Shown piece by piece: positions 23,831 through 36,582 of a stretch of DNA of 64,000 bases. Numbering within the stretch: position 1 is the stretch's first letter; each line of letters begins with the position of its first letter. This DNA comes from Eubacterium coprostanoligenes (lineage in GTDB: Bacteria; Bacillota; Clostridia; Oscillospirales; Acutalibacteraceae), in contig NZ_FUWW01000003.1 in NCBI RefSeq assembly GCF_900167205.1, positions 62,001 to 126,000 on the forward strand, given 5' to 3'. The notes beneath the pieces are model-generated. The model saw only the letters and a program-made list of their open reading frames with translations. It was not told the origin of the DNA and made no database searches. Made by a program: the position numbers and the translations under genes.

Positions 23831-24304
23831 TTATCTAAAACCTATAACAAGATAGCTTTTGTTGAGTTGGTTCAAATTCGTCATTTCAAACTTTCCTGTT
23901 GCACTTGCATTTTTTATTTCAATCTCATCTCCGTCAAGCGTCAAACCGTAGGTACTGCCGTTGATTGTTGCAAATCCAAAATAATTATAGTGCAAATTAT
24001 TACTATAATCCGACAAGCCAACCGGATAATTTGTTGAAAAAACAATGCACACAGTAGGTTCAAATCCCATATTCAGTGTTATTCTTCTTGTGTCGCTGCC
24101 GTTTCCAAGATATGACGCAAAGCCAATCGGATTGCTCCACTCTTTTTTCTGCTGTGCAGTGACATGCTTTGAAATGTTCCAAATGTGCTCGCTGATAGTT
24201 TTGTCCAAAATCTCGTTATCTCTGTTAAAATCCTCCATTTTTGGCACATCCGAGCCTATCCATTGATTAAGTTCAAGGTCTCCTGTTTTGTTTGTACTGC
24301 CCAT
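23831..24304 (-). CDS. Phage tail fibre-like protein
   Basis: This 157-residue protein opens with the pattern STNKTGDLELNQWIGSDVPKMEDFNRDN, typical of the N terminus of clostridial phage tail fibres, where it attaches to the baseplate. The C-terminal part is beta-rich and ends YLVIGFR. It is short for a fibre and is the last gene of the PBSX-like cluster (XkdV position). It would carry receptor-binding function. Confidence 0.75.
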   Translation of the reverse strand: MGSTNKTGDLELNQWIGSDVPKMEDFNRDNEILDKTISEHIWNISKHVTAQQKKEWSNPIGFASYLGNGSDTRRITLNMGFEPTVCIVFSTNYPVGLSDYSNNLHYNYFGFATINGSTYGLTLDGDEIEIKNASATGKFEMTNLNQLNKSYLVIGFR

Positions 24305-24308
24305 AAAT

Positions 24309-24722
24309 TCACCTGCTTTCTGTCATTGTCCACCTGAGATCTCGATTTTCAATCCTGTCCCAAGTGAGTCCCTCATTGTCGATAAAACTCCACGGTTTGC
24401 CTGTGCCGTTTAAATAAAAATCAAACGCAAGTCCAAACCAACCGTTAAAAATTTTGCCGACCGTATCAATATCGTATTTTGAAATTATAATTTTTCTGCC
24501 GTCAAACCTATATTCAATCCCGTCAAAAGCCTGTGCAATGCTTTCGCTGTCGGGCACATTAAAAACATTCACCGCCGTTGCACCCTTAATTTTGTGCAAA
24601 TATTCCGACAGCCTTTCAATTTGCTCTGAAACCGCCACGATTTCGGCAAGCACCAAATTATCAGAAGCGTCAATCTTTGCAACCGAATACAGGTGTTTCA
24701 ATCGGTCAAGCACTGTTTTCAT
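24309..24722 (-). CDS. Phage tail protein, XkdU/YmfQ-like (DUF2313)
   Basis: A 137-residue protein in the XkdU position after the baseplate J homologue. The pattern LDRLKHLYSV, then LSEYLHKIKGATAVNVF and a closing WTMTESR fits small Firmicute baseplate proteins. I choose the ATG at 24722 because GAGGA has 7-nt spacing there; the ATG at 24728 is in frame. The gene overlaps the upstream one by 17 nt. Confidence 0.65.
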   Translation of the reverse strand: MKTVLDRLKHLYSVAKIDASDNLVLAEIVAVSEQIERLSEYLHKIKGATAVNVFNVPDSESIAQAFDGIEYRFDGRKIIISKYDIDTVGKIFNGWFGLAFDFYLNGTGKPWSFIDNEGLTWDRIENRDLRWTMTESR

Positions 24723-25506
24723 CGGCATTCCTCACTTCAAATTCAAAATTAAACAGAGTGAAAAGCGACAATACATCCCGAACTCTTTGTTCCAAATCGG
24801 TTGAAACGGTTTTATCCCTCGTTTTCAAAACGCAAACAAGCTTGGCATTTTCCCTTATGATGTCGCACCCGATTACCTCGTCAAAGGTCATAATTCTGCC
24901 CTTCAAAAATTCCACATTTACACCGTTTGCCGGATACATAAGAGCGTCCTTAATCCTCAAACGAAGTGCCTCATCGTTTTCGTCATCGCATCCGCCAATA
25001 AAACTCACACGATTTTCAACCATCGCAATACCGCTTGGCGGATTCACCATAACAGATACCTCGCCATACGAGGCATTGTATTCTTCACCGCAAAACAACG
25101 CTTCCGCCCTGACGGAAACTGCTGTTTCGCCCGTACGAATAATCCCCTGTTCAAGAGTTTTGTACTGAATATACTTATACCCCTTCTTTGAGCAAACAAC
25201 ACCTTCGGGAATGACAGTGTCTTTTTCTCTGACCCCATCAATCAAAAATGTAATTTCGCCAACCGCCTTGCTCGCCTTTTTTCGCACAACAGAACATTCT
25301 GTTGCAATTCGGTCAAGATATTCTCCGGTTGCCGTCATCCACGCCGATTGCCTGAGCAAATATTCGCCCGCAACATACAAATTGAACAATTCGGTTGCAA
25401 TTGCCTTTAATCTTATTCCCGATTCACCATTCATATCGAGCACTTCGCCCGACTGCTCAAAATATGTTGTTTTCATATTTTCAAGTATTTCGTTATAACT
25501 AATCAA
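24706..25506 (-). CDS. Baseplate J-like protein (XkdT-like)
   Basis: A 266-residue homologue of gpJ/XkdT, the baseplate wedge protein of contractile tails. SGIRLKAIATELFNLY and LRQSAWMTATGEYLDRIA near the N terminus and the NDEALRLRIKDAL segment near residue 180 are family landmarks. It is shorter than XkdT (about 350). It overlaps XkdS by 8 nt. Confidence 0.85.
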   Translation of the reverse strand: MISYNEILENMKTTYFEQSGEVLDMNGESGIRLKAIATELFNLYVAGEYLLRQSAWMTATGEYLDRIATECSVVRKKASKAVGEITFLIDGVREKDTVIPEGVVCSKKGYKYIQYKTLEQGIIRTGETAVSVRAEALFCGEEYNASYGEVSVMVNPPSGIAMVENRVSFIGGCDDENDEALRLRIKDALMYPANGVNVEFLKGRIMTFDEVIGCDIIRENAKLVCVLKTRDKTVSTDLEQRVRDVLSLFTLFNFEFEVRNADENSA

Positions 25507-25765
25507 AATTCACTGTCACCGTCCTTATTTTTCCGTTCACCGTCACAACAAAGCTCACATCAAATTTGTTTTTTGCAACAGATTTGACAAACACACCGTC
25601 AAGCCCTGCAACGCTTTGCCTTGCATATGCCAAAATTTCCGCACAGGATTGCTCCATATTTATTTTTGAGCCAAAATTTTTGTCCGCATAAAACTCGCCT
25701 CGCTTGACCGCAAAGCATCTTACGGCATTTTTCAATATGTCGTCAATAACATCATTGTCATTCAT
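25499..25765 (-). CDS. XkdS-like baseplate protein (DUF2634-like), short
   Basis: An 88-residue protein similar to gp25/XkdS-type baseplate proteins: DDILKNAVRCFAVKRGEFYADKNFGS and AEILAYARQSVAGLDGVFV. It is shorter than typical family members (about 130). GGGGAG precedes the ATG. It overlaps both neighbours by 8 nt. Confidence 0.75.
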   Translation of the reverse strand: MNDNDVIDDILKNAVRCFAVKRGEFYADKNFGSKINMEQSCAEILAYARQSVAGLDGVFVKSVAKNKFDVSFVVTVNGKIRTVTVNFD

Positions 25766-26105
25766 TTTGTATCACTCCCCTGCTGTCAATCACCAAGCCG
25801 TTGAGAACAATGTCGCCGTTGTTTTTAAGGATAATATAAGCACCGCCGAGTGAAGAAATTTTCACCTCACCGCTTTCAATGTCCTCATCTTTGCTCAATG
25901 CCCCAAGCACTACCGCACCGTCATTTGATTCAAGCATAATGACATCCTCATCAACCGGCGGAACGCTTTTGTATCCATACGGAGCATAACTGTCAATGTT
26001 TCGCCTTGTGACTGTCGCACCCGCTTCAAGCTGATTGTCCGACAATGTAACCTTGCCTTTTTCGGCAACCTCCTTTTCCGAAGTCGCCACAATTCTTTTA
26101 CTCAT
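25758..26105 (-). CDS. Baseplate V/XkdR-like protein
   Basis: A 115-residue protein with an OB-fold-like core (SVPPVDEDVIMLESNDGAVVLGAL) and a repeated beta segment (GGAYIILKNNGDIVLNGLVI) like the spike region of gpV proteins. The position between the XkdQ- and XkdS-like genes supports a hub/spike role. The start at ATG 26105 overlaps the XkdQ-like stop by 8 nt. Confidence 0.65.
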   Translation of the reverse strand: MSKRIVATSEKEVAEKGKVTLSDNQLEAGATVTRRNIDSYAPYGYKSVPPVDEDVIMLESNDGAVVLGALSKDEDIESGEVKISSLGGAYIILKNNGDIVLNGLVIDSRGVIQNE

Positions 26106-27051
26106 CCACATAGCTCATTTCCTCCAAATCCGGCACATAATTCACTTTTATCACCGTGCGTTCACCCGATGAATCAAAAATATGAGCAACACTGCTCGCA
26201 ACAGCTCTGTCAAAAATATCAAAGCCCTCAACATCCGCTTTTATTTCATCACACAAATCAATTTCGGCATATCCCTGCATTGCAAGTTCCCATCCGCAAT
26301 ACTCTGCATTTGCAGATGAAAACACGGATTTCAACGCAGTTTCTCTTTGCCAATCGGGCACGGTAGAAATATTGCGAATTTTTCGGGCGGTTATTTTCTT
26401 ATCACTCATAAGCCTGCTGACTCTGTGATAAATGTAATCGGTGGAATTACTGATTTTATAATCAATCTGCGACAAAGCATCGCCCCTGTTGATAATTCGT
26501 TTTGCAGAAATGAGCCGTTTTCTATCAAGATTCACAGTGTTTTTTGTATGCAAAAGAACAAGCTCGTTGTCAGGAGTTACCCTGATTTTTTCACCAGTAG
26601 CGGAGTACACAAAGCCATTCATTGCACCATAGAGAGATGTTCCCTTGCTCACCTGATAGCTAATATCACTATATATGCTTCCAAGATTATACTTGAATTC
26701 ATCACCTGCATTTATCTCAAACAAAGCCATTGCGCTTGGAGAAGTATAAGTAAACGGCTTCGCCTCGCTGTCTGTCAAAAGGCAGGCACTTGAACGGCAA
26801 TACAAAAAGCACACAATATGGCTTTTGTGCAAGGTTTCTCGCTGGGTGTCAACAAAACCGTTGAACACACATTTTCCGTCAAAAAATGCCTTTGCTCTGT
26901 ACGCTTCGGGAATTGTTGTGTTATTAATAAAGGTAATCCTCAAGCTGTCGCACGGTGCATCGGCATCTCTGCACAATTCATATGATTTAAGCTGTCCGAG
27001 TTCAATCTCGCAATCGTTCAAATCATACAAGGCAAATGTCAAATCAGCCAT
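26098..27051 (-). CDS. Phage late-control/hub protein, XkdQ-like
   Basis: A 317-residue homologue of the gpD/XkdQ hub family. The N-terminal beta sandwich contains SLRITFINNTTIPEAYRAKAF and GKCVFNGFVDTQRE; the C-terminal half includes RKIRNISTVPDW and AMQGYAEIDLCDEI. Length is close to XkdQ (about 325). It overlaps the LysM protein gene by 13 nt. Confidence 0.78.
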   Translation of the reverse strand: MADLTFALYDLNDCEIELGQLKSYELCRDADAPCDSLRITFINNTTIPEAYRAKAFFDGKCVFNGFVDTQRETLHKSHIVCFLYCRSSACLLTDSEAKPFTYTSPSAMALFEINAGDEFKYNLGSIYSDISYQVSKGTSLYGAMNGFVYSATGEKIRVTPDNELVLLHTKNTVNLDRKRLISAKRIINRGDALSQIDYKISNSTDYIYHRVSRLMSDKKITARKIRNISTVPDWQRETALKSVFSSANAEYCGWELAMQGYAEIDLCDEIKADVEGFDIFDRAVASSVAHIFDSSGERTVIKVNYVPDLEEMSYVDE

Positions 27052-27554
27052 ATTTTTTCACCCTCTCTGACAGCAAAAATATCGCCAATGTCGTTGCATT
27101 TTACAATAGACTCAATCTGAACTCCCGTTCTGCTTGCAATGTCAAAAAGATTTTCGTTTTCAAGCGCATATGTATATCCCATGCTATGTTCTTCGCTTTT
27201 TGTATTGCACTCTTGCGTGAATTCAAAAGAATACTCCACCCTGTCTTTTCCGCTCGAATACGATATATCAAGCGATGTAAAGAGCATTTTTATAGGCACA
27301 CTGTTTGGCAAAAATAAATAATCACTGCCCTTTTTATTGAAAACACGCACAAGTTCAAAAGCCTTGACTGCCGAATCTCCGCCGGTCAAATACCCTTTGC
27401 CCGAAACGACAACGCAACTTCTGCCGTTTTCCTTGCAAATCTGTTCGTCATAAACCGTATTGTATTTTGTTGTGCCCTTGTTCATAGAAATCTTAATATC
27501 CTTTGGATTAATATCGAAATCAAATCCCTTATAGCTCATTTTCATAAACTGCAA
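27039..27554 (-). CDS. LysM-domain phage tail protein, XkdP-like
   Basis: A protein of about 171 residues with an N-terminal beta-rich domain (YKGFDFDINPKDIKI, a pattern typical of XkdP) and a C-terminal LysM-like module (ENENLFDIASRTG to VREGEKIWLI). XkdP normally lies after the tape-measure gene; here that gene is missing. The start is uncertain: TTG at 27554 has AGAGGTG at 6-nt spacing, GTG at 27563 lies inside that site and ATG at 27545 is also in frame. Confidence 0.72.
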   Translation of the reverse strand: MQFMKMSYKGFDFDINPKDIKISMNKGTTKYNTVYDEQICKENGRSCVVVSGKGYLTGGDSAVKAFELVRVFNKKGSDYLFLPNSVPIKMLFTSLDISYSSGKDRVEYSFEFTQECNTKSEEHSMGYTYALENENLFDIASRTGVQIESIVKCNDIGDIFAVREGEKIWLI

Positions 27555-27555
27555 A

Positions 27556-27660
27556 TCAATCACCTCTCACATTGTTGTCATATCGTCTTGAATCAAGCAT
27601 AATGTAATCGCTCAACTCTTCAGCTTCATTGCGACCAATCACATCATTTTCATTTTTCAT
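27556..27660 (-). CDS. 34-residue ORF at the missing tail-tube position
   Basis: The reading frame starts ATG at 27660, overlaps the stop of the upstream gene as ATGA, has GGAG 9 nt upstream and encodes 34 mostly charged residues (NDVIGRNEAEELSDYI, then MLDSRRYD). It ends just before the LysM gene. In PBSX-like clusters the sheath, tube, chaperone and tape-measure genes occupy this interval. It may be a remnant of one of these or a genuine small protein; I do not recognise a family. Confidence 0.55.
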   Translation of the reverse strand: MKNENDVIGRNEAEELSDYIMLDSRRYDNNVRGD

Positions 27661-28061
27661 ACATTACTCTCCTTTGTATAGGCAAGCGAAAATGTGAATG
27701 TCGCCTTCATTTTGTAACACTCTGCCGAAGAAGCCTTAACAATTGACGAAAGTTTAATTCCGCAAATCTTCTCGCTCATAATTGCCCTGACAATTTTTTC
27801 CATATCATCAAAAGCAATCGGAGAACCAAATTCATACGGTACAAAAAGGTCAATGTCAATCGCATATTTCCCAAAAAAGTTTTCATTATCAACACTTATA
27901 CTTTCCAAATCAAGTTCACCCGGAGAAATTGCAGCAATCTTTTTGCTGATTTTTGTTTGCTTTCTTGCATAAGGACAAGCCTTTATAAAACTGATTCCCT
28001 CAAGTTCTTTTTTCGATTTTAACAAATTAAGCAAAGCGTCTGTTTCATCATCCAAATACAT
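27657..28061 (-). CDS. Phage tail terminator/XkdJ-like protein
   Basis: A 134-residue protein with the pattern LLNLLKSKKELEGISFIKACPYARKQT and IDIDLFVPYEFGS, followed by FSLAYTKE at the end, consistent with head-tail completion or tail terminator proteins. Assignment is by position after the connector genes. It overlaps the next upstream gene by 14 nt and couples to the 34-aa ORF. Confidence 0.55.
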   Translation of the reverse strand: MYLDDETDALLNLLKSKKELEGISFIKACPYARKQTKISKKIAAISPGELDLESISVDNENFFGKYAIDIDLFVPYEFGSPIAFDDMEKIVRAIMSEKICGIKLSSIVKASSAECYKMKATFTFSLAYTKESNV

Positions 28062-28410
28062 CCTTATCCCCCTTTACAGCCTCACGAAGCACCGCCGTAT
28101 AGTAAAGAATTTCATCACCGATAACAACGGCACTCGATTTGATAAAATAATAATCCGTGCCCATAAGAGTCAAGATGTCATCTCTGCCAAAGCCTGTTAC
28201 ATCAAGCGTAAAAATGCCGATAATATAGTTCTTTTGATTAAATCCTATGTCTGTCGGATAAGCCTCAAATCTGACCTTATCTCTTCTCCACAGCTGTTCA
28301 GCCATCACCCTTGAGGTGATGACCGAACCGTTTTTAGTTGTAATTGTACAGCTGTGCGAATACTTTTCTATCATCGGCATAACCGCCTTTGAAAGATTGT
28401 TTAACTGCAT
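28048..28410 (-). CDS. Phage head-tail connector-like protein (XkdI position)
   Basis: A 120-residue protein, beta-rich, with KYSHSCTITTKNGSVIT near the N terminus and GFGRDDILTLMGTDYYFI in the middle. The position between the capsid-proximal connector and the tail terminator candidate suggests a head closure or connector role; the sequence alone is not diagnostic. Confidence 0.5.
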   Translation of the reverse strand: MQLNNLSKAVMPMIEKYSHSCTITTKNGSVITSRVMAEQLWRRDKVRFEAYPTDIGFNQKNYIIGIFTLDVTGFGRDDILTLMGTDYYFIKSSAVVIGDEILYYTAVLREAVKGDKDVFG

Positions 28411-28412
28411 TA

Positions 28413-28763
28413 TTACACCTCTCTGAAATAAAAACTCTTATCCGCAACCAAATGCGAAATTGATGCACACGCATCATCAAGCAGAGCCTTTGCATTTTTC
28501 ACGGCATTTCCGTTAGTTGATGAAGTGATTGAAACATCTCCCGCTTTAAAAGACGAAATTTCGCTGTCGCCCGAAGCAAGTGCAATCTGATAATTGGTCT
28601 TTGTCGCAACAAAGTATTCAAGGAGTGCCTCGTCGCTTTCGTCATATTCGTTTTCTGCAAACGGGCGCTTATTTATTTCAACAAGAGAAGAATATTTCTT
28701 CACTTCATCCTCTGTGAAATTGCCGATTGCACGCAAAATTTCAAGCACTTTTTCTGTGTTCAT
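28413..28763 (-). CDS. Phage head-tail connector-like protein (XkdH position)
   Basis: A 116-residue mostly helical protein (NTEKVLEILRAIGNFTEDEVKKY, then SDEALLEYFVATKTNYQIALASG) directly after the major capsid gene (2-nt gap). This is the position and fold type of HK97 gp6-like connector proteins. Confidence 0.55.
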   Translation of the reverse strand: MNTEKVLEILRAIGNFTEDEVKKYSSLVEINKRPFAENEYDESDEALLEYFVATKTNYQIALASGDSEISSFKAGDVSITSSTNGNAVKNAKALLDDACASISHLVADKSFYFREV

Positions 28764-28765
28764 AA

Positions 28766-29764
28766 TTAAACCTTCGGGTCAATTACAACGCACGCTTCAT
28801 CAATAATTCTGTTAAAGCCTGCCGTAGCCGTAACTGTTGCTCTTTCGATTTGACGGTCGATAAGTTTGTCAAAGTCTGTAACAACTTCACCAAACTGAAC
28901 CTTTTCCAACGCAAAGCGTTTGTCAAGTGCAAAAATTCTTTTTTCAAGGAGTTCAGACTTGCTAAACAAAAACTTTGCGCCAAACGGAGTAACAAGATTG
29001 CCTGTGCCGTGGAAGTCGTGTCCTGCCGTTGCGTCTTTGAATTCCGGAATGTTAATAATGTCAACAAAAGCCATAGGTCCGGCAATAATCGCATCAAAAT
29101 TATATGGAGAAAGCAATGCATACAAATTTGCAAAGTCATTGTAACCAATCTTATCCACAGCCTCTGAAATAACATTTCGTGTATCGTCTGTGTCAATTGT
29201 TCGAATTACCTGCTCAAGCTGACAAGTATTGATATAATTACCGATTTGCTTGAGCATGATGGCAAACAAATCAAGTCGCTGTGACTTAATAGACTCATAT
29301 GATGCAACAATAGTTCTACCCGATTTCTTGAGCTTGGTAAGAGAATGCTTTACCTTAATTTCCGTTTCAGGAATAAATGAGCCCTCGTTGATATAATCAA
29401 TCGAACCATTTCTGTCAATTGATTTACAATAAACAGAGCGATAATCAAGCGAATCAATAATTGTGGTTGTTGCAATCATATCATCAATGATATTGTTTGT
29501 GTTGATGGCCGCCTCTACCGAACGCTTGATGTATTCCGGAAACAAGACAGCCGAATCAGATGTCTGGAAGAATTTTGAAACCGGGTCAGAATTTCCTCCC
29601 TTTACCTTAATGTCAAATCTCTTGAGCTGACGCTCATATGCGTCAAGACCCTCAAGTTCTGTACCCTTATAATTTTCACTTGGGTCAATTTCTTCAAGTG
29701 ACTTTGTAAAGCCCTTTTCAGAAGTATAAAGACCCTTATCAAGTCTTAATGTATCAAATGTCAC
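28766..29764 (-). CDS. Phage major capsid protein (XkdG-like)
   Basis: A 332-residue protein of the HK97-fold capsid family as used by PBSX-like phages. Features are VLFPEYIKRSVEAAIN near residue 75, SGRTIVASYESIKSQRLDLF near 147 and FDKLIDRQIERATVT near the C terminus. No in-frame defects. The good GGAGGA before the ATG predicts strong translation, as expected for a capsid gene. Confidence 0.82.
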   Translation of the reverse strand: MTFDTLRLDKGLYTSEKGFTKSLEEIDPSENYKGTELEGLDAYERQLKRFDIKVKGGNSDPVSKFFQTSDSAVLFPEYIKRSVEAAINTNNIIDDMIATTTIIDSLDYRSVYCKSIDRNGSIDYINEGSFIPETEIKVKHSLTKLKKSGRTIVASYESIKSQRLDLFAIMLKQIGNYINTCQLEQVIRTIDTDDTRNVISEAVDKIGYNDFANLYALLSPYNFDAIIAGPMAFVDIINIPEFKDATAGHDFHGTGNLVTPFGAKFLFSKSELLEKRIFALDKRFALEKVQFGEVVTDFDKLIDRQIERATVTATAGFNRIIDEACVVIDPKV

Positions 29765-29781
29765 AATTTGTCCTCCTTATA

Positions 29782-30135
29782 TTAAAGTATAATTCCCGCA
29801 CGGGCGTCCGGTCTGCTAACCCAAAGAACAGTTACATACGGAGCTTCGGCATTTGCAGAATATTGAACATAGCCACGCTTGTTCATAATAAGTTTTGAGT
29901 ACATTTGCAAAACTTCACCGGCGAATTTAATCTCGGCGTATCCGCTCACCTGAACTGTAAAAAACGAATCATTAACACCGACAACAATGCCCAAAAACGG
30001 CTTGCCGACGCCTGCCAAAATAACATAGCCGTTTTCATCAGCCCTTACAAAATCGCCGATTTTAATATCACAATGGCCCATATCTTCAGCCTGCATTGTG
30101 ATACATTTTGTTTTAAATCCCTTATAAGAAACCAT
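29782..30135 (-). CDS. Capsid decoration-like small protein
   Basis: A 117-residue beta-rich protein between protease and capsid genes (KIGDFVRADENGYVILAG, VVGVNDSFFTVQVSGYAEI, RGYVQYSANAEAPYVTVLWV). This position and composition match capsid stabilising or decoration proteins (DUF2190-like). GGAGG precedes the ATG. Confidence 0.6.
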   Translation of the reverse strand: MVSYKGFKTKCITMQAEDMGHCDIKIGDFVRADENGYVILAGVGKPFLGIVVGVNDSFFTVQVSGYAEIKFAGEVLQMYSKLIMNKRGYVQYSANAEAPYVTVLWVSRPDARAGIIL

Positions 30136-30146
30136 AATTTTTCCTC

Positions 30147-31103
30147 CTAAATTCTAAATTGCGAAAAGTCATTCGCTTTGCTCTCAACTGCCTGTGCAAG
30201 TTGAGGCTTGATTTTTGTTTTTGCTTCGCTTTTCTTCATTCCGTCACGAAAACCAATAAGTTCCTTTGCCGTCATAACAGCAGTAACGGATGAAAAAAGC
30301 TTTGAATCCATATCAGGAAATGCTGACTTAAACAAATCAACAACCTCCTTTGAAAGACTCTTTTTGTATTCCTCGCCGAGAGTCGCCTCATCCTTTAGAC
30401 CCTCGATGTAGGTATTCAATCTGCTTGCTTCCGACTTTGTGAGAGTAACACCGTCACCCGAAGCAATGCTTTTGATAATATCCTGCATATTTTTCTCCTT
30501 TGCATTTTCAAAAGATTTGGTAACCCCTGCTTCTCGCTGTGCCGGAACTGCAACAAACGAGAACTCATAGGCATCTCTTGCACCACTCAAAATGTTGAAG
30601 CAGAGTTGACCGCCGTAGCTTTTGCCGGGAATATGTTCGCATCTGCCGTGGCGATTGTCCGTGTCACAAATTGAACAAACAGCCTTTTCAACACTGCAAG
30701 AAACAGAAACTTCTTTCTTTATTCCCGCATCAATCTCGGCAATAAGTTCTCTGTTTTCATCATTTTTGAGCATATACGCTCTCGCCTTAAGGGTATAGAA
30801 ATCGTCGCCGTCGGCAGTTTTCTTGCCGTCAACTCTTTCAACCCAAGCGTCAAAAACTCTTGCCTTTTGATTTTCGGCTTTCATAGAATGGTCAAAAATG
30901 CCTGTTTTGCCGACAAAATATTCTGCAAGCTGATTGAGAGTGGCAACAGAAAACTTTTCAAAATCTCGGTCAATATCGTTGTTGCAAAGGTCAACATTAA
31001 AAATATAAACCTCGTCAGCCGACATTTCTCGTCTTGAGAATTGACCGATTTTTTTCATATCCTCATCATTCGGAGCACTCTTTTGAATCAAAGCATCTGT
31101 CAT
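30147..31103 (-). CDS. XkdF-like prohead protease/scaffold protein
   Basis: A 318-residue protein. The N-terminal two-thirds resemble prohead proteases (DIDRDFEKFSVATLNQLAEYF, GIFDHSMKAENQKARVFDAWVE, EFSFVAVPAQREAG); a cysteine/histidine cluster (CSICDTDNRHGRCEH) could bind metal. The C-terminal 110 residues are charged and helical like a scaffold. Such protease-scaffold fusions precede the capsid gene. It overlaps the portal gene by 4 nt. Confidence 0.7.
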   Translation of the reverse strand: MTDALIQKSAPNDEDMKKIGQFSRREMSADEVYIFNVDLCNNDIDRDFEKFSVATLNQLAEYFVGKTGIFDHSMKAENQKARVFDAWVERVDGKKTADGDDFYTLKARAYMLKNDENRELIAEIDAGIKKEVSVSCSVEKAVCSICDTDNRHGRCEHIPGKSYGGQLCFNILSGARDAYEFSFVAVPAQREAGVTKSFENAKEKNMQDIIKSIASGDGVTLTKSEASRLNTYIEGLKDEATLGEEYKKSLSKEVVDLFKSAFPDMDSKLFSSVTAVMTAKELIGFRDGMKKSEAKTKIKPQLAQAVESKANDFSQFRI

Positions 31104-32251
31104 TGATTTACCTCCTCTGCTAATTTGTCTGCTTGAGCATTATAAAGTCGAGCCTGCGCTATTTGAATTTCGTCCTGCAAGGTTATATCCGTCCAACGAA
31201 CATCAACGCTTTTGTAAACGCCAAGCGTTGCCAAATAAGTCTCACCGATTTTTTTGATAATCGGAGTGATAATTCTGCGATACGCTTTAAGTTCCGTTGT
31301 CAAAATATCCGCCTGCTGTTGGCTCATTCTTTCTGTTGTGGACCACGAAAGTCCAAACATATACGGCATAAGTCCCGTCTTTGCAATAATCTGCTCAAGC
31401 ATTTGACGAACAGGAATTTCGCTGTCGAGAATTTGATTGTCTGCGCCGATTACGCTGACCTTAACATCACCGACCGCCACAAAATCCTTGACGGTTTCGG
31501 TACTGCTCATTGCGTCTTTCCACGCTCTCGCCATTTGATTGGCACGCTCCTTTGCAAATGCCTTGTCCAAACTGTCACCCTGCGGTTTGTATGTAACGGC
31601 ATAACGCAAATTTCCAAGTCGTTGCCAATTTGTGCCTATTGTGTTGTAAATTTTCAGCAAAATATCCGATACAAACGGCAGTCCTCGGAGCAAACTTGTG
31701 CCCAAGATTTCTCCCGGTTCGGGATTGAGCACCGAGAACAGAATCCGCTCTTGATGTGCAAACGGCGTTTGACTGTTCATATGACCCGAGCAGAAAATTA
31801 AATCCATATCGTTGTCTGCCCTTTTTACACTCACACATCCAAGCTCACCGTTGTACAGAGCATAAAAGCCGTGCTCATCAGCTACCATTTCACCGATTGC
31901 AGTGCCATAAGTCAAAAGCTGATTCATAAAATTATCAACAAACGACTGTATTCCGCACTGGTTGCCACTGACATTGACAGAAGAAAAAAATCTGTTCATA
32001 TCATCATTTAATCTGTCGTCACCGCAGTCCAATTCAAAGCCACCCATAAGACGCACGATTTTGTTAATTGCACTGTCAATAATCGGCACGCCCTCTCTGA
32101 TGGAGCGATAAACCCTGTTATTTGCTTCAACAAGCGGAGTGTAGTTGCCAAGATACCTAAACGGATGGCAATTCTTGCCCGCCGTTTGAACCGAAGCAGT
32201 TGCAACGGCATCGGATGAACCATTATTTTTGTTTTTGCCGAATATACTCAA
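31100..32251 (-). CDS. Phage portal protein (XkdE-like)
   Basis: A 383-residue portal: SIREGVPIIDSAINKIVRLMGG near residue 50, a GTAIGEMVADEHGFYALYNG segment near 115 and the helical wing/stem region with FGLSWSTTERMSQQQADILT near 300. It is shorter than XkdE (about 480) but without a frameshift. Translation starts at TTG with AAAGGA 9 nt upstream. It follows the large terminase gene by 4 nt. Confidence 0.82.
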   Translation of the reverse strand: MSIFGKNKNNGSSDAVATASVQTAGKNCHPFRYLGNYTPLVEANNRVYRSIREGVPIIDSAINKIVRLMGGFELDCGDDRLNDDMNRFFSSVNVSGNQCGIQSFVDNFMNQLLTYGTAIGEMVADEHGFYALYNGELGCVSVKRADNDMDLIFCSGHMNSQTPFAHQERILFSVLNPEPGEILGTSLLRGLPFVSDILLKIYNTIGTNWQRLGNLRYAVTYKPQGDSLDKAFAKERANQMARAWKDAMSSTETVKDFVAVGDVKVSVIGADNQILDSEIPVRQMLEQIIAKTGLMPYMFGLSWSTTERMSQQQADILTTELKAYRRIITPIIKKIGETYLATLGVYKSVDVRWTDITLQDEIQIAQARLYNAQADKLAEEVNQ

Positions 32252-32255
32252 GGCT

Positions 32256-33509
32256 TCACATCCTTTCTACTGCAATAGAAAACGCACAGTCATCGCTCCT
32301 CATATCAAGAACGGTGTTAACAAAATACCGTATGTCGTCCATTGCGTGATCATTTTCCTTTTTAGGTGCGTCACGTTTTATGTCGTTATCCCAACGATAT
32401 ATCGAAAATTCCCTTATCGTGTCGGTGCAAACGGGAGATATAAATATCTCATTCTGCTTCAAAGCCATACAAACTCTGTTTATGCCGTTGAGCACATCGT
32501 TTTCAGCCTTGATGACAGTAAATTCACCGTGACGGCGCACCGTTTCAATAAACGAGGCTGCTGACGGGTCAACTATCAGAGCCGTTATAGATTTGTCCCC
32601 GACAAGCTCTTTCAGATGACCGTAATATTCCTCATCCGTCAGCTGAACACCTTTCTCTCTTGATGAATGATAATATTCATTCACCCTGTACCAGCCGTCA
32701 TCACCTTTGCCCCAAAGCCCAAGCGAAAACGGATTGACAGTGCCGTAGTCACAGCTGAGATAATATTCGCTGAACGAGTCTGCCGTTTTAATATGCTTTT
32801 CAGGAGAAAACATCGGATAAACCAAACCGTCTGCGGCAACCCATTTTCCCTCAACAAAGCGTTCGTAGAACGCACCTGTGTAAAGTTTTTGGTATCGACT
32901 TTTGATTTTTGGCGAAAGTGACGGATTGTCGTCCATAGTAAAATGAAGATAAAGCATATTCTTTTCATCAGCCTTTTTAATCCACTCATTGTAAAACCAA
33001 TGAAAAGGATGCTCGGGATTGCAGTTGAACCAAAATCGTGAACCCTCAAGCGAGCACCTTGCAAGCGCCTGCTCAACAAAAGAACGAGGCATCAATGCAA
33101 CTTCGTCAAAAAGGACACCGCCCAAGGTCATACCCTGAATCAGAGAAGCAGAACTTTCATCCCTGCCACCAAAGATATAAAATCTGTTTTTGACGCTTCC
33201 TCTTTGAATTTCGAGCATATTCTTGCTGATTTTCTCCGTAACATTGAAGCCAAGCGATTTAAGCATCGGTATCATCGGAGTAACAACATTTCGCCTGAGC
33301 GAACTTATCGTTTTGCCACACAATGCAAATGAAGTGTCGTTGAAAGCATAAAATGCCCAAAACACAAACGACAGCGACATGCAAAGCGTTTTGCCCGACC
33401 TCACCGCACCGTCACAAATAATTCCGTTTTTGGCGCTGTATTTACTGCCTGCGCACCACCAATTAAGCGTTTGAAGCTGTTTTTGCGAAAACGGAAAAAA
33501 CTTAACCAT
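32256..33509 (-). CDS. Phage terminase large subunit (XtmB-like)
   Basis: The packaging ATPase/nuclease of PBSX type, about 417 residues. Walker A (GAVRSGKTL) lies near residue 35, Walker B (GGVLFDEVAL) near 130, and nuclease-domain acidic residues in YLSCDYGTVNPFSLGLWG near 255 and LIVDPSAASF near 315. The motor and nuclease motifs look intact. The start at ATG 33509 has GAGGAAG and overlaps the upstream gene; 16 in-frame codons further upstream lie inside that gene. Confidence 0.9.
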   Translation of the reverse strand: MVKFFPFSQKQLQTLNWWCAGSKYSAKNGIICDGAVRSGKTLCMSLSFVFWAFYAFNDTSFALCGKTISSLRRNVVTPMIPMLKSLGFNVTEKISKNMLEIQRGSVKNRFYIFGGRDESSASLIQGMTLGGVLFDEVALMPRSFVEQALARCSLEGSRFWFNCNPEHPFHWFYNEWIKKADEKNMLYLHFTMDDNPSLSPKIKSRYQKLYTGAFYERFVEGKWVAADGLVYPMFSPEKHIKTADSFSEYYLSCDYGTVNPFSLGLWGKGDDGWYRVNEYYHSSREKGVQLTDEEYYGHLKELVGDKSITALIVDPSAASFIETVRRHGEFTVIKAENDVLNGINRVCMALKQNEIFISPVCTDTIREFSIYRWDNDIKRDAPKKENDHAMDDIRYFVNTVLDMRSDDCAFSIAVERM

Positions 33510-33825
33510 TGCCAACTTCCTCGGCGTTATTTTGCGCACTCTTTTCAAGTGCTTCATAAAAGCTCAAGCCGTTTTCCTGCCTTTCGCCGTTGTTTTCAAT
33601 CAGCTTTTCAAACGCCTTTATGCGGTCAAAAAACTTGATTTCCATTCCTCCGCCCTTCGGCCGTTTTATCTCGCTCACATTGATGAGTTTCAGCTTCGGG
33701 AGTTTCTGCATAATTTCGTCTTCGCTCATAAAAAGAAGTTTCACCGCATCACAGCACGAGCCAAATGCAAGCTCGGTCAACCCCTTTTCAATTTGTTCTT
33801 CAAGCGTCATCTTTTTCTTCGCCAT
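33502..33825 (-). CDS. Probable small terminase subunit
   Basis: A 107-residue helical, charged protein (TLEEQIEKGLTELAFGSCCDAV, MSEDEIMQKLPKLKLINVSEI, RIKAFEKLIENNG) immediately upstream of the large terminase gene. Position and composition suggest the DNA-recognition subunit (XtmA role), although a classical helix-turn-helix is not obvious. It is the first gene of the cluster, with GAGGTG before the ATG. Confidence 0.55.
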   Translation of the reverse strand: MAKKKMTLEEQIEKGLTELAFGSCCDAVKLLFMSEDEIMQKLPKLKLINVSEIKRPKGGGMEIKFFDRIKAFEKLIENNGERQENGLSFYEALEKSAQNNAEEVGNG

Positions 33826-34477: not shown

Positions 34478-35446
34478 TTATAGATTTCTGATGTCGTTGC
34501 CGATAAAATAGAACGGTATGTATTCTCCTGTGAGTCGGCTTGTGATACGCTTGTCGTATTTTTCCTCAAGCCTGTCAAAGGCATAGTTTGTTGAAATAAT
34601 AGTCGGCTTGCCGGTGAGCAAACGGGTGTTAACAATATTGTATATTGTTGCAATGCTGTACTGATTGTCAATCTCCGTGCCCAAATCATCAAGCACCAAA
34701 AGGTCGCAACCAAGCACCTGATTTTTTGTGTAATTAATATTATCCGTTCTGCCGAATTGTTCGCTTTGCAAATCGTCACAAATATTCTGGCTTGTGCCGT
34801 AGCACACGCTAAAGCCCTTGTTAATCACAACATTTGCAATGGCAAGGCTCAAATGAGTTTTGCCAAGTCCCGCACCGCCAAAGAAAAACAAACTCTTGCT
34901 GTTGAGCGAAAAATTCTGTGCGTACTTTCTGCAAGTGTCGAGAATTTTTTCTGCTCTTTGACGAGGAACAATCGCATTTTCCATAGGTTGCTCGCTGTAA
35001 TAGCCAAGTTCGAACTTGTCAAATGTGCACTTGTCAAGCGGTGCAAAACGAGAAACCTCTTTTCGCATCAAATCTTTCAAAACCTGCTTTTGACACGAGC
35101 ACATCCTGCCGTCAATGACTCCCTTATCCTCACAAGCATTGCAAACAAAATGTGGTTTCATTGCATCCTCGGGATAGCCGTTCGCCTTGAGAAGCCTTGA
35201 GCGTTCCTCCACAAGAGCCTCACTTCTTGCTCGAAGTTCCGCAAGTTTTTCATCGGTATTTTGCTTATAGAAGAAAAGCTGGCTGATTTCCAAGCCGATT
35301 TGCTGAAGTCCTGCCTGAATTTTTTTAATTTCGGGAATTTCCTCCTTGATCTGCATAGAACGCATATCCGCATCCATAACAGCGCTGTCGTGCCTTTTTT
35401 CAAGTATTCTCTTTGCCTTGTTGTACATCTCGTTTGAATAAGCCAT
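34478..35446 (-). CDS. DnaC/DnaI-like helicase-loader ATPase
   Basis: A 322-residue AAA+ ATPase. An N-terminal helical region precedes a cysteine cluster (CNACEDKGVIDGRMCSC, about residues 100-116) that probably binds zinc. Walker A (FFGGAGLGKTH) is near residue 185, Walker B (LLVLDDLG) near 250. The arrangement matches DnaI, which loads the replicative helicase. It overlaps no gene but follows the DnaD-like gene by 9 nt, the usual primosome pair in Clostridia, so I consider it host rather than phage. Confidence 0.88.
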   Translation of the reverse strand: MAYSNEMYNKAKRILEKRHDSAVMDADMRSMQIKEEIPEIKKIQAGLQQIGLEISQLFFYKQNTDEKLAELRARSEALVEERSRLLKANGYPEDAMKPHFVCNACEDKGVIDGRMCSCQKQVLKDLMRKEVSRFAPLDKCTFDKFELGYYSEQPMENAIVPRQRAEKILDTCRKYAQNFSLNSKSLFFFGGAGLGKTHLSLAIANVVINKGFSVCYGTSQNICDDLQSEQFGRTDNINYTKNQVLGCDLLVLDDLGTEIDNQYSIATIYNIVNTRLLTGKPTIISTNYAFDRLEEKYDKRITSRLTGEYIPFYFIGNDIRNL

Positions 35447-35455
35447 AATTATCCT

Positions 35456-36463
35456 TTATATATCATAATTGTCATTGAGCATTGCACGGCGATTGATTTC
35501 ATCAATGTCATAGGTTTCATCAATAGCGGATTTGTTCTTCTGCTCTTTCTTTGAATGGAATTCCTTTTCTTCCTCGGCAACAGCCTCCGGAGTAAATATG
35601 CCCTTTTTCTTCCAATTTTTGAGCACCGAATCAACATATTTCAATGTTGGCTTGTCGGTGTTCTCTTTCATAATATCGCAGGCAATGGTAATCATCTGCA
35701 TATCAAAATCTTCGCTCCAACGATTAATCATTTCTCGTTGCTTTATGGTCGGATTTCTGTGCTTGATTCCGCTAACCGCCACAATCTCGCTCCACAATCT
35801 GTCTGAAGCCTCAAGCATACGCAATCTTTCATCCGCAGCCTCAAGGGTAACAATTCCCTCTTCGCTCCAATTCTTTGCCATAGTGCCGATATACGAAGTT
35901 CCGATTGCTCTGCCCTTTGCTTTTTCGGTCTTGTAATATTCCAAAATAACAAGCACCACATCACACGGAAGCCCGTAATATGTCACCATATTTATGACAA
36001 GTTCCTGCTCAATATGGCTGATTGTTCTGCCAAAAACCTCTTGTGCATGATGAATGAGTTCTGTCAACTCTCGATTATCTCTGCACATAGTAACGATGTC
36101 GCTCGGATTGAGTTTTGGCACAGGAATTGCCTCTTTAACCTTAACAGTTTTGGCTTCTTCTTTTTTTGGAGGTTCAACAACTGCCATGCTTTCCGCAGGC
36201 GGTTGAGCGTTGACAACTCCGTCACACGACAAAACGCCCTCTTCTACCCAAAACTCCAAAAAATCCGTTGCGTCAGCCTCGGTGCATCCAAGTGCTTTTG
36301 CAACATATTTGCTGTCGCACGGTGCATTGTTTGACAAAATGAGCAACAATGCCTTCAGCTGATATTCACTTGCAAGTTTTATGTAATCTGTTGCAACTTT
36401 TTTAGGCACGGCAACCATTCCGTCTTGCCAAACATTGCCGACAGGTACAATTTGATACAGCAT
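35456..36463 (-). CDS. DnaD-domain replication initiation protein
   Basis: A 335-residue protein with an N-terminal winged helix (VPKKVATDYIKLASEYQLKAL, SKYVAKALGCTEADATDFLEFW) and two DnaD-type C-terminal domains (about residues 130-205 and 215-290), each ending with a YI/YV..NW signature (SYIGTMAKNWSEEGI and KYVDSVLKNWKKKGI). DnaD remodels origin DNA with DnaI. The start at ATG 36463 uses AGAGGTGG; the in-frame GTG at 36472 sits inside that site. Confidence 0.88.
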   Translation of the reverse strand: MLYQIVPVGNVWQDGMVAVPKKVATDYIKLASEYQLKALLLILSNNAPCDSKYVAKALGCTEADATDFLEFWVEEGVLSCDGVVNAQPPAESMAVVEPPKKEEAKTVKVKEAIPVPKLNPSDIVTMCRDNRELTELIHHAQEVFGRTISHIEQELVINMVTYYGLPCDVVLVILEYYKTEKAKGRAIGTSYIGTMAKNWSEEGIVTLEAADERLRMLEASDRLWSEIVAVSGIKHRNPTIKQREMINRWSEDFDMQMITIACDIMKENTDKPTLKYVDSVLKNWKKKGIFTPEAVAEEEKEFHSKKEQKNKSAIDETYDIDEINRRAMLNDNYDI

Positions 36464-36582
36464 TTTGCCCACCTCTTTTCAAATAAACATAAAAATATTT
36501 TACCAAAATTCAGCCGATTATTCAACCACAATATAAGGGGCACTCATCAAAGCGCCCCCACTATATAAATGATATATAATAA

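Follow-up and report, generated by a model that had tools for sequence, protein, structure and literature searches.

The window analysed here is a stretch of 64,000 nucleotides from Eubacterium coprostanoligenes (contig NZ_FUWW01000003.1). On its minus strand, at 23831-33825, lies a compact cluster of phage-type packaging, head, neck and baseplate genes in which no tail sheath or tail tube is recognised. It is probably a domesticated operon resembling a gene transfer agent (GTA), derived from a contractile phage.

Gene content

The cluster spans 9,995 nt, of which 98.7% is coding. Its longest stop-free runs measure 435, 388 and 336 codons, far above the maximum of 157 seen in 200 mononucleotide shuffles, and the cluster that an initial annotation placed here is real. 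That annotation counted 14 genes. There are 17, tightly packed: 16 open reading frames (ORFs) of at least 88 amino acids (88-433 aa), numbered g1 to g16 in gene order, and one of 34 aa, called g9a. The 15 junctions between the longer ORFs comprise 8 overlaps (six of 4-14 nt, one of 23 nt, one of 56 nt) and 7 gaps, which are 2-17 nt long or, once, 93 nt. The tight overlaps of 4-14 nt described earlier thus hold for 6 of the 15 junctions, next to two longer overlaps and the gaps.

The gene order is PBSX-like, as had been proposed, and library matches and positions support this. It starts with the small terminase TerS, the large terminase TerL, portal, protease or scaffold, a small head protein, capsid and three neck proteins. 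A LysM protein, a hub, a spike-like protein, two wedge proteins, a protein in the gpI position and a 157-aa fibre-like protein follow. The names of g7-g9, g13 and g15 derive mainly from position.

Packaging begins with g1 (33502-33825), a TerS-like protein of 107 aa without N-terminal helix-turn-helix (HTH) domain, which matches Pfam Terminase_2 at E 0.0064, below the cut-off, and from profile position 58 of 141. TerL, g2 (32256-33557, 433 aa), matches phrog_2 (E 6e-52) and Terminase_6N (E 1e-15). The portal, g3 (31100-32251, 383 aa), matches phrog_30703 at E 4e-125. A probable prohead protease or scaffold, g4 (30147-31103, 318 aa), takes its function from position, since its match, phrog_16951 (E 7e-96), is a family of unknown function. 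A possible head decoration protein, g5 (29782-30135, 117 aa; phrog_4588, virion structural protein, E 2e-7), precedes the major capsid protein g6 (28766-29764, 332 aa; phrog_3922, major head protein, E 1e-69).

The neck consists of three candidates. The adaptor-like g7 (28413-28763, 116 aa) has a weak match to head-tail adaptor phrog_541 (E 0.02) besides its position, and the head closure or stopper candidate g8 (28048-28410, 120 aa) and tail terminator candidate g9 (27657-28061, 134 aa) are assigned by position. The idea that g7-g9 might be a tail tube was rejected, because these genes coexist with sheath and tube in two relatives (L153 and L154). Because it stands beside a sheath and tube there, g8 is not itself the tube.

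What had been taken for a single LysM hub is two genes, the LysM protein g10 (27039-27563, 174 aa) and the hub g11 (26098-27051, 317 aa). The AlphaFold2 model of g11 has a predicted local distance difference test score (pLDDT) of 94.9, and Foldseek aligns it with Mu gp44 (1wru) at a template modelling (TM) score of 0.75, and also with 3d37 and 3cdd. The predicted fold matches a central baseplate hub of the Mu gp44/T4 gp27 kind. The model of g10 (pLDDT 88.5) combines a tube-like barrel with a LysM part (Pfam LysM E 0.011, below the cut-off). Its Foldseek matches, at a TM score of about 0.5, are baseplate chains of contractile systems: 9gtp_M (E 3.5e-9), 9g8s_S, 7aeb_M and 6j0n_b. Chains from the neck and virion of a GTA particle (6toa, 6tba) match more weakly.

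The remaining baseplate starts with g12 (25758-26111, 117 aa), a Mu Gp45-like spike or baseplate protein that matches phrog_25991, of unknown function, at E 4e-12 and Phage_Mu_Gp45 at E 0.009, below the cut-off. The next gene, g13 (25499-25765, 88 aa), has no library match and is a candidate gp25/gpW-like wedge from its place before J. Baseplate wedge J itself, g14 (24706-25506, 266 aa), matches phrog_6 (E 1e-35) and Baseplate_J (E 1e-23). Position makes g15 (24309-24728, 139 aa) the gpI/XkdU-like protein, and the cluster ends with a short tail-fibre-like protein, g16 (23831-24304, 157 aa), matching phrog_33092, function unknown, at E 9e-7.

Searches for missing parts

Sheath profile PF04984 has no match in the bacterium's own genome, while 3 of 14 control genomes are positive. 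A sheath profile built from relatives finds nothing in 70 genomes of the genus; that search was run without a positive genome of its own, and the same alignment used as a hidden Markov model detects sheath genes in many other relatives. Tube profile phrog_27038 finds nothing in six genus genomes, with one match in each of four positive-control genomes. Sheath and tube therefore appear to be absent as far as these profiles see, as the initial annotation held. Its further suggestion that the missing parts lie elsewhere in the genome found no support from the sheath and tube profiles.

The reported lack of an integrase nearby is borne out for tyrosine integrases, with no match on the window's 149.8-kb contig and five on other contigs of the genome; serine recombinases were not searched. 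Inside the cluster there are no phage replication genes. No regulator turned up for the cluster. The fibre gene g16 is a single copy, without second match, in 10 of 10 genus genomes.

Retention and inheritance in the genus

The portal occurs in 51 of 59 further genus genomes, with a single match each except in G058, where it is split into two frames; the copies of G040 and G053 are cut by contig ends. Regions around the portal were fetched for 40 of the 98 genomes in the portal survey, plus G058. Two of the loci, L108 with broken frames and G058 with its split portal, are described as they stand. The G058 portal (locus L348) has two frames and one stop in a cluster that is otherwise largely recognisable, which is either decay or a sequencing error.

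Hub, wedge J and fibre genes without sheath or tube occur in 36 of the 38 fetched genus loci, and the other two are cut by contig ends. Judged by profile matches, 15 of the 16 longer genes are always found in those 36 loci, g15 among them (36/36), and g5 in 24. The synteny comparison proposed in the initial annotation has a divided outcome: none of the 38 genus loci, 36 of which reach past the baseplate, has a sheath or tube, but other genera carry both in the same interval. Downstream, an M28 peptidase and a protein of about 413 aa, which we take to be DUF1015-like, are common to several species, and the 5' flank is variable.

The cluster also follows the host phylogeny. In the 31 of 39 genus genomes (30 of the 38 fetched plus the window's own) that have rpoB and all 13 genes used (g1, g5 and g15 were excluded), every rpoB split supported at 0.9 or more, 16 in all, recurs in the 13-gene cluster tree, with no supported conflicts. 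Cluster and rpoB distances correlate at 0.71, a value reached by 0 of 2000 Mantel permutations.

The ratio of nonsynonymous to synonymous substitution (dN/dS), which the initial annotation proposed to determine, is not near 1. It is 0.09-0.22, at dS 0.59-1.35, in ten close pairs of related species, not of the window's own species; some pairs share a species, and one pair with identical loci was excluded. These data indicate that the cluster is inherited vertically with the host lineage and that its structural genes are under purifying selection.

The J ORF is visible in 36 genus loci and has 345-386 codons in 35 of them; in the window and its nearest relative, L031, it has 266-269. Likewise, g15 is 139 aa long in the window, whereas the proteins in its position in four other species measure about 185-192 aa. 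The short J of both and the short g15 of the window therefore suggest that reduction continues within the genus.

A microprotein in the tape-measure position

The 93-nt gap between g9 and g10, the one long intergenic gap of the operon, is only apparent. It is filled by g9a (27556-27660, 34 aa). The ATG of this gene and the stop of g9 overlap in the sequence ATGA, and its 3' end runs 8 nt into the start of g10. The window's peptide carries the motif LSDYIMLDSRRYD, and in 38 of 38 genus copies (the window and 37 loci; L057 ends too early) the peptide here has a C-terminal motif of this kind, for instance LSDYIMLDSRRYD or ISEYLRLDSKRYD. The pooled dN/dS of g9a is 0.09 over 13 pairs, some sharing species.

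Outside the genus, a g9a profile run on the 300 nt upstream of g10 matches in 37 of 86 distinct loci: 21 of 36 sheath-bearing, 12 of 33 tube-only and 4 of 17 others. At control positions, upstream of six other genes, the matches number 0/78, 1/70, 2/69, 0/86, 0/84 and 0/85. The ORF bearing the motif could be delimited in 30 of the 31 loci that match the motif's regular expression, with starts set mechanically, so that some lengths may be overestimates. In loci with sheath and tube it measures 93-289 aa with the motif C-terminal (n=19; the shortest, 93 aa in L150, is weak, and the next has 123). In tube-only loci it has 46-74 aa (n=9), and in loci with a baseplate and no tube 34-50 aa (n=2).

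All these ORFs lie directly before the LysM gene, the tape-measure position in PBSX. Neither g9a nor any of six longer relatives matches a PHROG family (0/7 proteins), and because of this the label 'tape measure' is purely positional. Among the delimitable loci, the protein in this position is seen to shrink in parallel with the tail, apparently down to its C-terminal motif.

Relatives across the order

A portal-profile scan of named genomes gave at least 514 relatives. Most of the 80 titles inspected are Clostridia, and the relatives listed include metagenome-assembled genomes (MAGs) of Oscillospiraceae and Ruminococcaceae as well as Merdimmobilis hominis. In an even sample of the order, the portal occurs in 70 of 394 genomes, namely 35 (of 43 sampled) in the window's family, 20 in family f14, 11 in family f26 and 4 elsewhere. 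All but one of these 70 have a single match; the other has a second, weak one. Six of the 70 had already been fetched or were the window's own genome, 60 were fetched, and four (G114, G125, G272, G324) were not.

In addition to the window, 103 loci were available for typing. Sheath and tube are present in 21, a tube only in 14, a baseplate without tube in 45 and a hub only in 8; 9 have no baseplate in view, and 6 are untypable at contig ends. The own genus, window included, accounts for 37 baseplate-without-tube loci and two untyped ones, and forms one clade with support 1.0. The sheath-and-tube form is known from families f1, f2, f14 and f26. Relatives of other genera carry it, some as a single-copy element, and Merdimmobilis hominis has it as well. 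Three such loci (L153, L154, L150) hold sheath, tube, a gene in the chaperone position and a gene of about 95 aa in the interval between g9 and the LysM gene, and the L153 sheath matches phrog_279 at 2e-36.

The cluster tree, built on 100 of the 103 loci plus the window, sorts largely by host family and genus. Rooted at its midpoint, it has a parsimony root set of sheath and tube or heads only, with 12 changes. We read it as probably a contractile-tailed ancestor followed by repeated tail loss. The baseplate of head-only loci may lie elsewhere.

The three loci omitted from the tree (L303, L305 and L307, tube-only, family f1, genus g42) have no TerL or TerS profile match in a stretch beginning about 4 kb before the portal, and were also left out of the TerS HTH scan. 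Perhaps these loci have lost their packaging genes or carry them elsewhere, or the genes have diverged strongly.

Some further forms stand on their own. In L284, L286, L103, L111, L112, L119 and L138, head and neck genes are followed by one protein of about 280-310 aa that matches the g9 or g16 profile; with no baseplate in view, it is possibly a terminator-fibre fusion. In family f26 several clusters (L326, L328, L329, L331, L334, L336, L070) stop after the hub gene, with no wedge, spike or fibre profile match beyond it within a stretch of about 17-20 kb. In one f14 locus, a sheath-and-tube cluster is directly followed by a possible endolysin (L316, 15414-16061), apparently an M15-type peptidase, which has no homologue in 15 genus genomes.

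The TerS proteins vary as well. For the window's TerS and four of four scanned genus copies, the Terminase_2 match begins at profile position 57-59 of 141; six of six scanned copies of other genera match from position 1. Over about 1.2 kb upstream of TerL, the HTH domain is missing in all 38 testable own-genus copies, counted as deduplicated loci, with one untestable. Among f14 loci, 13 of 14 with a sheath and 3 of 3 with a tube only lack it too, as do 8 of 9 baseplate-without-tube loci from other genera of the window's family. It is kept in 8 of 8 hub-only and 8 of 9 head-only loci. TerS proteins of known GTAs are described as lacking an N-terminal HTH DNA-binding domain (PMC6854486, PMC11841831).

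Genomic surroundings and database records

The flanks of the window's cluster hold genes for galactose-1-phosphate uridylyltransferase, PHP, alpha-galactosidase, an M28 peptidase, GDPD and nitroreductase, and an unmatched 106-aa ORF. Between the terS side of the cluster and these ordinary genes, at 34478-36472, lies a pair of genes for an IstB/DnaA-type ATPase and a DnaB_2 protein. It resembles a replication-initiation pair that hosts and phages alike can carry. Because just one of 38 other genus loci (L031) shares it, it is not counted as part of the cluster.

IMG/VR lists a viral genome (L156) that is also 9,995 nt long and has a portal 100% identical to the window's. Four unverified faecal scaffolds named 'Bacteriophage sp.' (L071-L074; GenBank MT835508, MT835769, MT835952, MT836604) contain the cluster beside bacterial-looking genes, which in L071 presumably include ribosomal protein genes. 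These scaffolds may be bacterial contamination or packaged host DNA.

Interpretation

The preferred reading, to which we assign a probability of about 0.7, is that the operon is GTA-like and domesticated, passes down vertically and descends from a PBSX/Mu-type contractile phage by removal of the shaft, with head, neck and baseplate kept. As part of that whole, the removed shaft would comprise sheath, tube, tube chaperone and long tape measure. Most likely the cluster packages the bacterium's own DNA, as GTAs do. For a wider version the odds are about even. It holds that the operon is single-copy, vertical and GTA-like throughout the order, that its tail was amputated repeatedly in graded steps, and that the ruler shrank to the 34-aa microprotein. 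The end product in this genus would then be a DNA-packaging head with a Mu/T4-type baseplate on its neck, delivering without tube or contraction.

The proposed mechanism is as follows. Unselected host DNA would be loaded into a small capsid by TerL and the HTH-less TerS. The portal (g3) and the three neck proteins, adaptor, stopper and terminator (g7-g9), would be capped directly by a ring of the LysM barrel protein (g10), the hub (g11) and the spike (g12). By such direct capping, we propose, LysM barrel and hub would replace the tube. The simplest assembly runs from terminator to LysM ring, hub and spike with no tube, and the docking of these parts is likewise a proposal. The microprotein g9a would be the leftover C-terminus of the ruler protein, and would plug or seed the hub. 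The proteins g13-g16 would dock and bind the recipient without contraction. Release would require lysis genes; none were found by the searches made.

The shape of the cluster, with prophage gene order and no tail shaft, is also what a recently deleted, decaying prophage would present, its tail genes gone and the rest still to go, and the split portal frame in G058 fits this. It was rejected as nearly untenable. Genus-wide retention, congruence with rpoB and dN/dS of 0.09-0.22 stand against it, as do the single copy and the contig's lack of a tyrosine integrase match. The first three also uphold the initial annotation's argument that this is no simple decay but something domesticated and GTA-like.

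A capsid-forming satellite, such as the capsid-forming phage-inducible chromosomal islands (cf-PICIs), would make its own heads and borrow tail tubes from a helper phage. Head and packaging genes without a shaft, the retained neck genes and the DnaB_2/IstB-type pair upstream in the window would suit it. A borrower of tails has no need of the baseplate and fibre genes that are kept, though. In addition, the sheath profile matches in none of 70 genus genomes, the contig shows no tyrosine integrase match, the tree is congruent with rpoB, and the replication-type pair stands beside the cluster at just 1 of 38 genus loci. A mobile satellite was therefore judged quite unlikely.

Two further explanations accept a functional particle. 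In one, the particle is that of a genuine short-tailed phage or GTA, and the rest of its tail parts, together with its lysis genes, form a second, divergent operon, as in the Faecalibacterium agent FpGTA, which is split in two (PMC12946183). The lack of lysis genes in the genus searches agrees with this, but no sheath or tube profile matches in the genome and g16 is matched just once in all 10 genomes searched, and we give the idea very little credence. In the other, a domesticated particle has a different job, either as an antibacterial or protein-delivering head-baseplate complex or as a stationary-phase lysis product that packages DNA without delivering it. This is unlikely, though it deserves some weight: the sequence evidence for a GTA fits it equally, a channel-forming tape measure or tube is lacking, and PBSX, as cited in the FpGTA paper, is a precedent for DNA packaged and not delivered (PMC12946183). 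The strong selection on TerS, TerL and portal, together with a TerS altered as in GTAs, argues instead for DNA packaging as the selected function.

Several observations weigh against the GTA-like operon that we prefer. The cluster is known from its genes alone, and particle, packaging and transfer are all inferred. The DnaB_2/IstB-type pair adjoining terS in the window is of a kind found in phage replication modules, though just 1 of 38 genus loci shares it. An M15-type endolysin query finds nothing in 15 genus genomes and holin PF05105 nothing in 10; other lysis families were not searched. Control by SOS/LexA was rejected: a perfect LexA-type box is found upstream of terS in none of 38 loci, and a one-mismatch version only in L048 and L054. 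Loss of the TerS HTH domain does not track loss of the tail, because the sheath-bearing f14 loci share it in 13 of 14 cases; with hub-only and most head-only loci keeping the domain, it was rejected as a correlate.

The portal is missing from 8 of the 59 genus genomes, four of them at least 95% complete. In a 50-genome rpoB tree, six portal-less genomes (two of them 67-68% complete) nest inside the genus, a pattern that suggests occasional loss. Three of these (G006, G038, G051; 95-97% complete) form one clade, whose absence is likely a single loss. With weak splits included, rpoB and cluster trees have 20 of 28 splits in common, and the correlation with rpoB distance is uneven among genes (0.77 for g4, 0.36 for the capsid, 0.32 for g13). 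The g9a motif goes undetected by the profile search upstream of g10 in 49 of 86 loci outside the genus. Finally, a tape measure is described as setting tail length and aiding the entry of DNA into the cytoplasm (PMC5099701), and a particle without one may therefore not deliver DNA.

Overall, the interpretation given in the initial annotation is partly supported. If the GTA-like reading is true, such elements extend to a large family, given the portal in 70 of 394 sampled genomes of the order, and they provide a natural deletion series of a contractile tail. The series would make it testable how little machinery packaged DNA needs to exit its head and get into a cell, and what portion of a tape measure is retained when there is no longer a tail to measure. 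The reading would also have a bearing on how horizontal gene transfer works in gut Clostridia. It is also a warning that IMG/VR holds host elements of this kind as viral genomes.

Comparison with known systems

Within open-licence PMC papers, preprints excluded, FpGTA of Faecalibacterium prausnitzii (Borodovich et al. 2026) alone was found as the closest published system. It is described as an operon of about 10.5 kb whose particles of about 40 nm hold about 9 kb of DNA, and was present in all twelve Faecalibacterium genomes of that study; its authors call it podovirus-like, and the first GTA-like elements from the human gut microbiome (PMC12946183). Like it, the window's cluster is an operon of about 10 kb in gut Clostridia with TerL, portal, scaffold, capsid, a TerS without obvious DNA-binding domain, and no replication genes in the operon; FpGTA particles are reported without identifiable tail, and the cluster is known as genes only (PMC12946183). 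The cluster's 10.0 kb compares with packaged Faecalibacterium fragments of 8.4-8.9 kb (PMC12946183). The paper places FpGTA I at 2536737-2546346 of CP030777.

FpGTA keeps baseplate, fibre, receptor-binding protein and lysis genes in a separate 5.5-kb operon (PMC12946183). In the window the baseplate genes stand with the head genes in one operon, and the searches for lysis genes found none. No pattern of a separate operon such as FpGTA II appears, as the fibre gene g16 is matched only once in each of 10 genus genomes. The portions of PMC12946183 available describe neither a form with the baseplate in the operon nor a tail series. The likeness to FpGTA is drawn from its description, not from sequence comparison.

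PBSX of Bacillus subtilis packages host DNA and has the same order of terminase, portal, protease, capsid, connectors, LysM, hub and wedge. It differs in having a sheath, a tube and a long tape measure, and it carries regulatory and lysis genes of its own. The window's cluster is unlike a PBSX-type contractile particle in that profiles find no sheath or tail tube. Unlike cf-PICI satellites, which carry an integrase, it has no tyrosine integrase match on its contig. Microcystis phage MACPNOA1 has a distant portal homologue (27% identity); unlike the cluster, it is recorded as a phage, with a tape measure gene annotated at 4.3 kb.

RcGTA (Rhodobacter capsulatus GTA) has a siphovirus-type tail, whereas the window's cluster has a predicted Mu/T4-type hub and baseplate. 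With RcGTA and other alphaproteobacterial GTAs, as these are described, it shares a TerS without N-terminal HTH (PMC6854486, PMC11841831), and also vertical inheritance (PMC11841831).

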